Shown here piece by piece: positions 22,340 to 44,367 of a stretch of DNA of 64,000 nucleotides. Numbering within the stretch: position 1 is the stretch's first letter; every line of letters begins with the position of its first letter. The position numbers and the translations under genes are program-made. The notes beneath the pieces are model-generated. The model saw only the letters and a list, made by a program, of their open reading frames with translations, was not told the DNA's origin and made no database searches. This stretch comes from Pseudomonadota bacterium (GTDB lineage Bacteria > Pseudomonadota > Gammaproteobacteria > Steroidobacterales > Woeseiaceae): NCBI GenBank assembly GCA_027621915.1, contig JAQCAD010000005.1:1-64000 (forward strand), written 5' to 3'.

Positions 22340-25300
22340 TTAAGTTGCTCGACTTGGGGCTCGACTGATTTCAATCGTCCAGTTTTCATCGTCCAGCGTC
22401 CGCTCTTCCCGGTAAAGCGCTTTCTGCTGCCCGACGGACCAGTCAGTTGCGAGGGTTTCGGCCATCAGGTATTCCCGATGTTCCTCCAGCGCCGCAGTAA
22501 CTCCCGTTGAACCTGAAACGCCAAGCACTATCCGATCCGATACCTCAAGGCCAGCCTGTTTGCGCGCCTCCTGCACGGTGCGAATAAGCTCCCGCGCGAC
22601 GCCTTCGCGAATCAATTGATCGTTCAGGCTGGTGTCCAGGGCAGTGAGATAGCCGCCGTCTTCGCCACACGCGTAACCCGCGGCGGAACTCGTTTCAATC
22701 AGTACATCTTCCTCACCTAGCGAAATCGGCTCGCCCAGGACATCGATATTGAACGTTTCCCCGCGCGCAACGCTGCCCGCAATCATTGCGCCATCGGCCT
22801 CCTCGAGTGCTTTTTTTATCTGTGGCACAAGTTTGCCGTAGCGTTTCCCAATTCTCGGCAGATTTGGTTTTATGCGATACGTCACCAGGCCGGCATCACG
22901 AGCGATAAATTCCATGGACTTGACATTCAGTTCCTCCAGGACCTGTTCAAGATGACCCTGAAGCGCCCTGGCTGCCTTGTCGTCCGGCGTTCTGACCAGC
23001 AATCTCGACAGTGGCTGACGAGTGCGCACTCCGGACTGGTTTCGCGCGGCGCGGGCGAGCCCGACAACTTTTTGCACTACATCAATTTCGTAAAGGAGAT
23101 CCGCATCGTCGAACGATTCGTTCACCATTGGCCATTCAAACATATGCACACTGACGGGCGCATCCGGATCCAGGTTTCTCACCAGGTTTTGATACACGTG
23201 TTCGGAAAGAAACGGCACGAATGGCGCCATGAGCCGGTGAGCCGTGTGCAGACACTCGTAAAGCGTCAGATACGCTGCGCGTTTGTCCGTTATATCGGTC
23301 GATTTCCAGAATCGGCGCCGATTGCGTCGCACATACCAGTTGCTCAGCTGATCGATGAACGACTCGATCGCATCACCTGCACGTTTGGCATCGAAAGCAT
23401 CTAACGCCTCCGTACACGTCCGAACTGTCTGGTTGAGCAACGCAATCGCCCAGCGATCTATTTCAGGCCTTTCAGCGACAGGAATGCGGTCGGCCGGATC
23501 GAAGTTGTCAATTCGCGCGTAGAGCACGAAGAAGCTGTACGTGTTCCAGAATGTATTGACGAACGAACTTGCGACATCCTGAACGATATCTACGGATATC
23601 CGTTTGAGAACCTCCGGGCTGAGTCGCGCGAGAAAATACCAGCGCAATGAGTCGGCGCCGACAGTGTCGAACACATCGTAGGGGTCGACGATATTGCCGA
23701 CGGACTTGGACATCTTCTTACCATCCTGATCCACGATCAGATTCAGGCAGATGCAATTCTTGTAAGCTACGCTGTCCGAAACCAGAGTCGAGATTGCATG
23801 TAGCGTGTAAAACCATCCACGGGTCTGATCGATCGCCTCACAGATGTAGTCCGCCGGAAAGTGTTGTTCGAAAGTCTCGACGTTTTCAAACGGGTAATGC
23901 CACTGCGCGTATGACATAGCGCCGGAATCGAACCAGCAATCAATTACTTCAGGTACGCGACGATACGTTCTCCCGTCCTTTTCGAAAATAACGTCATCTA
24001 TCGCAGGACGATGCAGATCAAGCTTGCTCAGATCGCGACCGGCCAGCGCCTCGAGCTCAGCGACCGAGCCTGTACAAACGTAGTCGCCTTCACCGTCTGT
24101 CCAAACGGGCAACGGCGTGCCCCAAAAACGTTCGCGGGATAAAGCCCAGTCAACATTATTCTCCAGCCATTTTCCGAAACGTCCATCGCGAATATTTTCA
24201 GGAATCCAATTGATTGTTTTATTGAGTTCGACCATCCGGTCACGATAGTCGGACGTACGGATATACCAGGCATTCTTGGCGTAATAGATGACTGGATCAC
24301 CCGTGCGCCAGCCAAATGGATAACTGTGCCGGTACGTTTCCGAACGGAACATGAGTCCCCGCTCTTTGAGAATCCGGATCAGTGGCTTGTCAGCGTCTTT
24401 AAAAAACATTCCGGCTACTGGCTCAATTTCAGGAAGGAAGTTTCCGTCAAGGCCAACTGCGTGAATGACAGGAAGTCCGTGCGCTTGTCCGAGCGCCAGA
24501 TCGTCTACGCCATAGGCAGGTGCCGTATGAACGATGCCGGTTCCGGATTCGGTGCTGACAAATTCGCCGGCGACAACGCGGAATGCGTCGCCATCTACCT
24601 CGAAATAGCTGAAAAGCCGCTCATATCGCAATCCAATCAGATCACTGCCTTTGACATTTTTGACAACCTTGTGCGGAACGTCACGCAAGACAGATTCACG
24701 TAATGCGTCGGCAAGAATAAGTGTCTCGCCGTCTGCGTCTACATAGACGTAGTCTATGTCCGGGTGCACCGCCAAAAGCATGTTAGCTGGCAGTGTCCAT
24801 GGAGTGGTTGTCCACACCAGAAAAGATGTGCGCTTCTCGCCCTTGACGTTGAACCGAACGAATACTGAAGGATCGTCCACATCTTTGTAACCCAGCGCCA
24901 GTTCGTGGGATGACAACGTCGCGCCAATGCGCGGATCGTATGGGACGACTTTGTATCCTGGGTAGATCAGACCTTTGTCCCAGATCGTTTTTAAAAGGTG
25001 CCATTCACTTTCGATAAAACTGTTGTGCAGCGTGTAATAGGCTTCATCGAGATTGACCCAGAAGCCCATTCTCTCGGTCATTTTTTCCCAGTCACCGATG
25101 TAACGCATAACGGATTCGCGACAGAGCCGCGTAAATTCAGCGATACCAACTTTGTCTTCGATTTCCTGCTTGTCGTAGCTTTCTATCTTTTTATCGCGCT
25201 TGAGCTGCTTTTCCACTTCGTGCTCGACGGGCAAGCCATGTGTATCCCAACCCGCTTTACGTGGCACATGGAAACCGCGCATCGTTTTATAGCGTGGATA

Positions 25301-25504
25301 GATGTCCTTAAAGCTGCGCGCAAGTACATGATGAATGCCCGGCTTGCCGTTAGCTGTCGGAGGACCTTCGTTGAAAGTGAAAAGCGGCCGCCCTTCCGAC
25401 ATTTTCAAGGTCTCCGCAAATACGTTGTGGTTGCGCCAGAAGTCGAGCACGTCGTTTTCAAGTGTCGGCCCATCGTAGCGACCTGATACTTCTTTAAGAC
25501 TCAT
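22340..25504 (-). CDS. ileS: Isoleucyl-tRNA synthetase, type 2 (IleRS2), with an altered HIGH motif (GIHH)
   Basis: Charges tRNA-Ile. The 1054-residue class Ia enzyme has the Rossmann fold start (EGPPTANGKPGIHHVLARSFKD), the editing domain (about 200-400; VVWTTTPWTLP appears as FLVWTTTPWTLPANML), the KMSKS loop (KKMSKSVGN at 23702-23716) and an anticodon-binding domain with a long C-terminal region typical of type 2 (eukaryotic-like) IleRS. The HIGH tetrapeptide reads GIHH (25328-25339), so the first and third positions are swapped relative to HxGH. ATG 25504 follows AGGACAGGAAAAC; the 90-codon upstream extension is the riboswitch leader and is not coding. No lspA follows, unlike the common ileS-lspA order. 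Likely acquired horizontally and probably mupirocin-resistant, by family knowledge. Confidence 0.95.
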   Translation of the reverse strand: MSLKEVSGRYDGPTLENDVLDFWRNHNVFAETLKMSEGRPLFTFNEGPPTANGKPGIHHVLARSFKDIYPRYKTMRGFHVPRKAGWDTHGLPVEHEVEKQLKRDKKIESYDKQEIEDKVGIAEFTRLCRESVMRYIGDWEKMTERMGFWVNLDEAYYTLHNSFIESEWHLLKTIWDKGLIYPGYKVVPYDPRIGATLSSHELALGYKDVDDPSVFVRFNVKGEKRTSFLVWTTTPWTLPANMLLAVHPDIDYVYVDADGETLILADALRESVLRDVPHKVVKNVKGSDLIGLRYERLFSYFEVDGDAFRVVAGEFVSTESGTGIVHTAPAYGVDDLALGQAHGLPVIHAVGLDGNFLPEIEPVAGMFFKDADKPLIRILKERGLMFRSETYRHSYPFGWRTGDPVIYYAKNAWYIRTSDYRDRMVELNKTINWIPENIRDGRFGKWLENNVDWALSRERFWGTPLPVWTDGEGDYVCTGSVAELEALAGRDLSKLDLHRPAIDDVIFEKDGRTYRRVPEVIDCWFDSGAMSYAQWHYPFENVETFEQHFPADYICEAIDQTRGWFYTLHAISTLVSDSVAYKNCICLNLIVDQDGKKMSKSVGNIVDPYDVFDTVGADSLRWYFLARLSPEVLKRISVDIVQDVASSFVNTFWNTYSFFVLYARIDNFDPADRIPVAERPEIDRWAIALLNQTVRTCTEALDAFDAKRAGDAIESFIDQLSNWYVRRNRRRFWKSTDITDKRAAYLTLYECLHTAHRLMAPFVPFLSEHVYQNLVRNLDPDAPVSVHMFEWPMVNESFDDADLLYEIDVVQKVVGLARAARNQSGVRTRQPLSRLLVRTPDDKAARALQGHLEQVLEELNVKSMEFIARDAGLVTYRIKPNLPRIGKRYGKLVPQIKKALEEADGAMIAGSVARGETFNIDVLGEPISLGEEDVLIETSSAAGYACGEDGGYLTALDTSLNDQLIREGVARELIRTVQEARKQAGLEVSDRIVLGVSGSTGVTAALEEHREYLMAETLATDWSVGQQKALYREERTLDDENWTIEISRAPSRAT

Positions 25505-25571: not shown

Positions 25572-25607
25572 TAAAAAGAAACCCCGAACGCCGTTACGCG
25601 TCCGGGG
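25572..25607 (-). terminator. Intrinsic terminator of the ileS T-box leader
   Basis: On the minus strand, CCCCGGACGC pairs with GCGTTCGGGG (25582-25607) as a 10-bp stem with one G-U pair and a 6-base loop, followed by a U-rich run (25572-25581). The 5' arm shares its CCCCGG with the antiterminator, so the two structures exclude each other. Confidence 0.85.
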
Positions 25608-25829
25608 CGATATGAATTCAGTCGCGGTACCACCCGGTTCACAAAGCATCTGAAATACTTTGCCTCAATGAGCCCGGTTTCGAGGGCAAGCCGGCCAAGC
25701 CTAATACGCATGAAAAGCGATTCGGTCGGCGACTCAGGGGTGATATTCGACGGGATTCGATCCGGGGCTTTCACCGTCCCCCGGTCGCTTTGAACAAATG
25801 CTCCGCCTGTTTGTCCCCTTCAGCGTCCT
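25572..25829 (-). promoter_or_regulatory. T-box riboswitch (tRNA-Ile specific) upstream of ileS
   Basis: Reading 5' to 3' on the minus strand, Stem I begins GGAC-GCTGA-AGGGG and closes with CCCCT-GA-GTC, giving the base helix and a kink-turn. Next comes the specifier loop with GAAT then ATC (25742-25744) then A, where ATC is an isoleucine codon. The upper helix GGCGG/CCGTC leads to a distal hairpin (CCGGGG/CCCCGG) whose loop contains GGTG. A stem III-like hairpin (CAAAG/CTTTG) precedes the T-box GGGTGGTACCGCG (25623-25635). The antiterminator forms by CCGGG/CCCGG and GCG/CGC around the bulge UGGU, which would pair with the ACCA end of uncharged tRNA-Ile. Uncharged tRNA-Ile thus favours read-through. 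This accounts for the only gene-free stretch above 300 bp. Confidence 0.93.
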
Positions 25830-25836
25830 GCAAGGG

Positions 25837-25865
25837 AAACTAGCTTCGACAGGTGAAAATTACAA
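25837..25865 (-). promoter_or_regulatory. Candidate promoter of the T-box leader
   Basis: On the minus strand TTGTAA (25860-25865) is separated by 17 bases from TAGTTT (25837-25842). The predicted start, near 25829, falls at the first base of Stem I. Both hexamers are imperfect, but the position fits the leader exactly. Confidence 0.5.
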
Positions 25866-25869
25866 GAGG

Positions 25870-25892
25870 AAAAGGGGTCAGAGCCCTTTTTT
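25870..25892. repeat. Dispersed repeat core GGGGTCAGAGCCC, single copy
   Basis: The 13-bp core (25874-25886) flanked by A4 and T6 is shared with two other loci in this window (41.3 kb and 44.3 kb). Here it stands alone, five bases upstream of the candidate -35 of the T-box leader and 55 bp from the start of the divergent epoxide hydrolase gene. Confidence 0.75.
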
Positions 25893-41273: not shown

Positions 41274-41375
41274 TGATGATTAATGGGGTCAGAGCCCTTG
41301 ATGATTAATGGGGTCAGAGCCCTTAAGACCCGCCAACGCGAATACCCGGTTTTTTTTCCCAAGGGCTCTGACCCC
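41274..41375. repeat. Repeat cluster: two tandem copies plus an inverted copy of GGGGTCAGAGCCC
   Basis: A 25-bp unit is tandemly duplicated (41274-41298, 41299-41323), each copy containing the core (41285-41297, 41310-41322). An inverted core GGGCTCTGACCCC follows at 41363-41375, so the transcript can fold into a strong hairpin. An outer inverted pair CCCGCCAA/TTGGCGGG encloses the inverted core. The element fills the gap between the DUF3426 gene and dusB. Confidence 0.85.
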
Positions 41376-44291: not shown

Positions 44292-44367
44292 AAAAGGGGT
44301 CAGAGCCCATTATTTAGCGGTGCAGGCAGAGTCTCGCATAGCCATGAAAAGGGCTCTGACCCCTTTT
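44292..44367. repeat. MITE-like inverted-repeat element between purH and purD
   Basis: AAAA plus the core GGGGTCAGAGCCC (44296-44308) is mirrored by GGGCTCTGACCCC plus TTTT (44351-44363 and 44364-44367), enclosing about 42 bases. The 17-bp perfect inverted repeats make a 76-bp element that may act as a hairpin within the purHD transcript. No coding capacity. Confidence 0.85.

Follow-up and report, generated by a model that had tools for sequence, protein, structure and literature searches.

How does the isoleucyl-tRNA synthetase gene of a gammaproteobacterium come to stand behind a leader RNA of the T-box type, and is that leader likely to work? The question is raised by the minus strand of the window, i.e. 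the whole stretch of 64,000 nucleotides analysed here, which comes from a member of the Woeseiaceae, a family placed by NCBI taxonomy within Woeseiales, Gammaproteobacteria. A survey from 2008 found T-boxes in two of 125 proteobacterial genomes, both from the delta lineage (leuA of Geobacter and Pelobacter; PMC2494555), a survey from 2013 limited them to Firmicutes, Actinobacteria, Chloroflexi and Deinococcus-Thermus together with Geobacter (PMC3766115), and a paper from 2020 described them as Gram-positive only (PMC7270179). None of the three reports a gammaproteobacterial T-box. A full-text search of the accessible papers gave no T-box in connection with Woeseia and no riboswitch in connection with Woeseiaceae, and it may be that the TBDB database (PMC7778990) holds such sequences without comment.

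The sequence and structure of the leader, its conservation, its gene context and taxonomic spread, and the gene tree lead us to consider it very probable that the locus is an isoleucine T-box attenuator acting on the sole ileS2 gene, that both came jointly from a Chloroflexota-like lineage ahead of the family's radiation, replacing ileS1, and that they have been inherited vertically since.

Anatomy of the leader and its gene

The complete T-box leader spans positions 25837-25573 on the minus strand, upstream of ileS (Table 1). With cmscan, RF00230 matched window positions 25600-25832 (minus strand) over the entire model (1-219 of 219, not truncated), with 73.2 bits and an E-value of 5.2e-16. 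When the window was scanned at the gathering threshold no RF00230 entry was obtained, the score of this copy being below the Rfam gathering score of 93 bits, which is a curation threshold and no biological feature. The cut-off is strict: it was passed in two of 14 control genomes, while T-boxes scored in at least five of the 14. Eight orthologues from the same family exceeded it, with 94.9-113.3 bits. The full-length match (E 5e-16) and the orthologues above the cut-off thus outweigh the gathering miss, and of the RF00230 hit that the original prediction had expected, only the threshold part failed, for this copy. The fold z-score of the whole leader was −2.15, with 4 of 200 shuffled sequences folding equally well.

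Table 1. Positions in the window of the leader elements and of the gene downstream
Feature	Position	Strand	Details and evidence
Promoter	25837..25865	-	-35 TTGTAA (25865-25860), 17-nt spacer, -10 TAGTTT (25842-25837); conservation among relatives
Stem I with kink-turn, specifier loop and distal T-loop motif	25731..25827	-	cmscan RF00230 alignment; covariation
Specifier codon AUC (isoleucine; anticodon GAU)	25742..25744	-	ATC invariant in 30 aligned family leaders
Stem II (S-turn type) region and Stem III (about 25663-25641)	25641..25730	-	cmscan alignment; RNAalifold compensatory pairs
T-box sequence AACCGGGTGGTACCGCGA with UGGU bulge (25632-25629)	25622..25639	-	CCGGGTGGTACCGCG invariant, 30/30
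Antiterminator, CCGGG (25637-25633) with CCCGG (25606-25602)	25602..25637	-	100 % of cells paired, 30 sequences
Intrinsic terminator, 11-bp stem (25608-25581) and T-rich tail	25573..25608	-	98.8 % paired across relatives
ileS2, isoleucyl-tRNA synthetase, 1054 aa, GIHH at residues 56-59	22340..25504	-	TIGR00392, 935.6 bits

In Stem I the kink-turn is formed by GCTGA (25824-25820) facing TGAG (25736-25733), and the distal T-loop motif by AGCGA (25789-25785) and GGTGA (25775-25771). The antiterminator is extended by an upper helix of GCGA (25625-25622) with UCGC (25610-25607), and the terminator stem is followed by TTCTTTTT. One CCCCGG arm is common to terminator and antiterminator, making the two helices mutually exclusive. 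The computed energies were −22.2 kcal/mol for the terminator and −10.5 kcal/mol for the bare antiterminator, so that termination is expected to prevail as long as no tRNA is bound, as it does in known T-boxes. The U of the UGGU bulge fits A73, the discriminator of tRNA-Ile. A search for tRNA-Ile(GAU), with an E. coli query and by pattern, returned only other tRNAs; the usual location of this tRNA is in the rRNA operons, and those of the genomes are masked as N.

The promoter TTGTAA-17-TAGTTT was not flagged by a scan with a generic sigma-70 consensus, though about 28 of the 30 aligned family leaders preserve it with no gap (TTG 90-93 %, TA 90 %, last T 100 %). Just upstream of it lies one of six copies of GGGGTCAGAGCCC in the window, where 0.08 would be expected. 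The copies (sites include 25874-25886, 41285-41375 and 44296-44363) often occur as facing pairs near gene ends, and the element looks like a dispersed repetitive palindrome.

The named parts of the original prediction, including the promoter candidate, were all recovered on the minus strand, as was the layout of transcription attenuation, with terminator and antiterminator sharing an arm. Isoleucine specificity also held, the specifier being the same in every aligned leader and the gene directly downstream being ileS in 30 of the 30 loci checked.

The gene was correctly foreseen as coding for an IleRS2. Its product has GIHH in place of HIGH (window positions 25328-25339), and it groups with other IleRS2 enzymes carrying the swapped GXHH signature. 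In a TIGR00392 search of the whole genome it was the sole IleRS gene; three further class I synthetase-like open reading frames matched weakly, none of them over the cut-off. The swapped signature is the mark of mupirocin-hyper-resistant IleRS2 (PMC10485003). Based on the GIHH motif and the single IleRS, natural insensitivity to mupirocin is predicted for the Woeseiaceae-type family.

Conservation and spread of the leader

In an alignment of 30 leaders from the family the terminator core was invariant, like the specifier and CCGGGTGGTACCGCG, and all three stay constant across genera in which IleRS differs by up to 30 %. The distal platform positions AG(C/A)GA and GTG..AG, for which docking is predicted, are invariant or nearly so. 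RNAalifold kept 36 of 51 predicted pairs through two-sided changes in at least one sequence. For the named structure (Stem I and antiterminator) 95.9 % of the cells were able to pair, two-sided changes occurred in 20 of 31 pairs, and the covariation score was 0.334; shuffled alignments gave 0.178, and slid partners no more than 0.110. Every Stem I helix covaries. In the relatives' alignment four of the 11 terminator pairs had changes on both sides. Most of the antiterminator is invariant. The last pair of its upper helix covaries; its lower helix never varies and therefore provides no covariation evidence of its own. Together, the aligned sequences indicate that the leader is under selection as an RNA.

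The search with RF00230 was extended to 60 relatives (G000 being counted within the 32 matches listed). A T-box was found ahead of ileS in 31 of the 36 genomes from the same family, among them a complete genome in a single contig, and in none of the 23 genomes representing fifteen other families of the order. The five family genomes lacking a match comprise two with no ileS match, two with only the 3' part of the gene, which lies at a contig edge, and one in which the leader has decayed. On a wider scale, T-box scores were obtained in only two of 369 genomes sampled over the Gammaproteobacteria, both from the same family. Among 398 genomes of the phylum only the genome of the window and G726, an unrelated small proteobacterial genome, gave matches; the latter, with 26 bits, was set aside as probable chance.

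Within the genus, the leader L051 agrees in sequence with L036 (genome G001). The decayed leader (L187, contig G002:C4, about 1330-1500, reverse complement) belongs to the same genus as well. It has kept promoter and terminator, has a perfect palindrome instead of most of Stem I, and its T-box has decayed to GTGTGGTACCGTG. Either natural loss or an assembly artefact may lie behind this.

Origin of ileS2 and its leader

When 147 genomes of the order were searched with the ileS2 product, the IleRS2 proteins of the family were 69-100 % identical to it, while most other families of the order had an ordinary IleRS1 with about 31 % identity. A few IleRS2 genes, with 65-72 % identity, were present in one sister family (f6), where ileS2 follows next after ribF. 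The T-box lies between the two genes in one f6 genome (G095) and is absent in two others (G112 and G134). The place after ribF is the usual one of ileS1 in Gammaproteobacteria.

T-boxes also occur at the sister gammaproteobacterial IleRS2 genes L043, L044, L049 and L144, all four with the AUC specifier, and those of L043 and L049 score above the RF00230 gathering score. No T-box was found in the scanned flank of the sister genes L142, L145, L045 and L048. Read most simply, gene and leader entered the Gammaproteobacteria in a single transfer, and some sister lines later lost the leader. At L049, from an Arenicellales MAG (L049:2055-3001), the T-box (115.8 bits, AUC) lies ahead of a glutathione-S-transferase-like gene, and ileS2 starts 13 nt after that gene. 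From this arrangement the inserted gene is apparently under T-box control.

IleRS trees were built with 107 and with 44 proteins, a mixture model being used for the latter. They gave one gammaproteobacterial IleRS2 clade (SH-aLRT 100), which fell together with T-box-bearing Chloroflexota (96-97). This clade has a long stem, with 0.45-0.55 changes per site, and there is a four-way split inside the Chloroflexota group, so that the donor is named here only as Chloroflexota-like. The ileS leaders of Chloroflexota that were tested scored 94-103 bits with RF00230, and the T-box motif is present on most Anaerolineae ileS genes in the set. Where readable, all IleRS2 of the Chloroflexota and gammaproteobacterial group have G-X-H-H, and the IleRS2 of Bacillota, which have the normal H-X-G-H motif, group separately. 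Since the clade lies among T-box-bearing Chloroflexota, and the other families of the order mostly have IleRS1, gene and switch were most likely transferred together from Chloroflexota-like bacteria, displacing ileS1; we infer the joint move from the gene tree. A transferred gene had been proposed originally with a Gram-positive or similar donor. The transfer is retained, but the donor is not a classical Gram-positive one and rather belongs to a T-box-bearing lineage with GXHH IleRS2 that is nearest to Chloroflexota.

Some other IleRS2 genes deserve mention. That of the gammaproteobacterium Oceanococcus (L105) derives from a different, Rhodothermota-like source, and we regard it as a second, independent acquisition of IleRS2; its scanned flank gave no T-box match. 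In a MAG of a Leptolyngbyaceae cyanobacterium, an IleRS2 gene is accompanied by a T-box above the gathering score (L084:2626-2894, 95.1 bits), which could be a binning error; the 2008 survey found no T-box among Cyanobacteria (PMC2494555). Two Armatimonadota IleRS2 genes, outside the usual lineages, carry a GC-rich T-box motif (L060 and L065, upstream of 3001).

Alternative readings, mechanism and implications

A contig derived from a Gram-positive or Chloroflexota genome would explain both a T-box where none is expected, in Gammaproteobacteria, and the finding that, beyond the class, the nearest genes belong to Chloroflexota. However, the host genome, with a completeness of 95 % and a contamination of 0.27 %, contains no second IleRS, the neighbours of ileS2 are ordinary proteobacterial genes (e.g. 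GroEL, DsbD, AccC, PurH and RhlB), and the IleRS clade is itself gammaproteobacterial. As the T-box is present in nearly the whole family, including the complete single-contig genome, contamination is ruled out and its likelihood practically nil; the gammaproteobacterial host assumed from the outset is upheld. Vertical descent of T-box and ileS2 from a deep bacterial ancestor, with no transfer, would be compatible with the long gammaproteobacterial stem and with a donor placed only as Chloroflexota-like. It is nevertheless very unlikely, considering the IleRS1 of most other families of the order, the occurrence of IleRS2 only here and, sporadically, in other families, and the position of the sister-family ileS2 at the ribF site, as in a displacement.

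The leader could also be a non-functional relic of the donor, with ileS2 expressed constitutively. The decayed leader in the same genus fits such a relic, as do the four sister genes with no T-box in the scanned flank, which show that the element can be lost. In a relic, however, neither the covariation of the stems nor the fit between terminator and antiterminator would persist, and here compensatory changes are seen in all Stem I helices, with specifier, bulge, T-box and terminator core unchanged across many genera; the vestigial element was thus rejected on covariation and we hold it to be highly improbable. That the T-box acts on translation initiation and not on transcription is scarcely credible in our view, even though such action has been proposed for the ileS T-boxes of Actinobacteria (PMC1262725) and riboswitches of Pseudomonadota are usually without terminators (PMC12452182). 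In the leaders studied here the antiterminator has a competitor in a GC-rich 11-bp hairpin with a T run, which nearly all members have kept. Neither helix includes the ribosome-binding region, which follows at a distance of about 55 nt, and this makes control of translation unlikely.

For the preferred reading, a transcription attenuator, the mechanism would be as follows. With tRNA-Ile charged, the CCCCGG terminator would fold and transcription would end about 70 nt before ileS. On isoleucine starvation uncharged tRNA-Ile(GAU) would build up, its anticodon would pair with AUC in Stem I, and its elbow would dock on the distal T-loops of Stem I. The free ACCA end could then pair with UGGU, stabilising the CCGGG/CCCGG antiterminator, and read-through would allow ileS2 to be transcribed. 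Element and gene would have been acquired before the Woeseiaceae-type family radiated and inherited vertically afterwards.

It is well supported that this T-box is ordinary by construction and unexpected by lineage. It shares with the ileS type of RF00230, e.g. on ileS of Dehalococcoides, where the 2008 survey reported a T-box (PMC2494555), the same 219-position architecture, AUC, UGGU, the antiterminator/terminator pair and ileS downstream, and differs in the gammaproteobacterial host, the score below gathering and the GC-rich CCGGG/CCCGG antiterminator. The leuA T-boxes of Geobacter and Pelobacter (PMC2494555) likewise occur in bacteria then filed under Proteobacteria, but in the delta lineage and with another gene and amino acid, whereas here an aminoacyl-tRNA synthetase is concerned and the element is fixed in a gammaproteobacterial family. 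The actinobacterial elements are likewise isoleucine T-boxes on ileS (PMC1262725), but with a proposed block of translation initiation, compared to the terminator of the Woeseiaceae-type copy. The SAM-I riboswitch of Xanthomonas is also a tRNA-sensing leader RNA in a gammaproteobacterium, responding to uncharged initiator tRNA, but it is an unrelated RNA without specifier or T-box sequence and regulates the met operon at the translational level (PMC7270179).

Strict database cut-offs hide such cases, the present T-box copy being invisible at Rfam's gathering score. It is likely that a T-box unit and a GXHH IleRS2 entered the Gammaproteobacteria, displaced ileS1 and were kept in nearly all of the family, over the full course of its radiation, as the sole, tRNA-sensed control of IleRS. 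This would be the first gammaproteobacterial T-box lineage, in which a proteobacterial RNA polymerase would respond to an attenuator that originated outside the Proteobacteria. The known distribution of T-boxes is altered by one that is fixed in a gammaproteobacterial family common in sediments, and the case illustrates clearly how an RNA regulator can move along with its target gene and persist in a distant transcription system. With cultivated relatives such as Woeseia and Lentisalinibacter, T-box control becomes testable in a proteobacterium.
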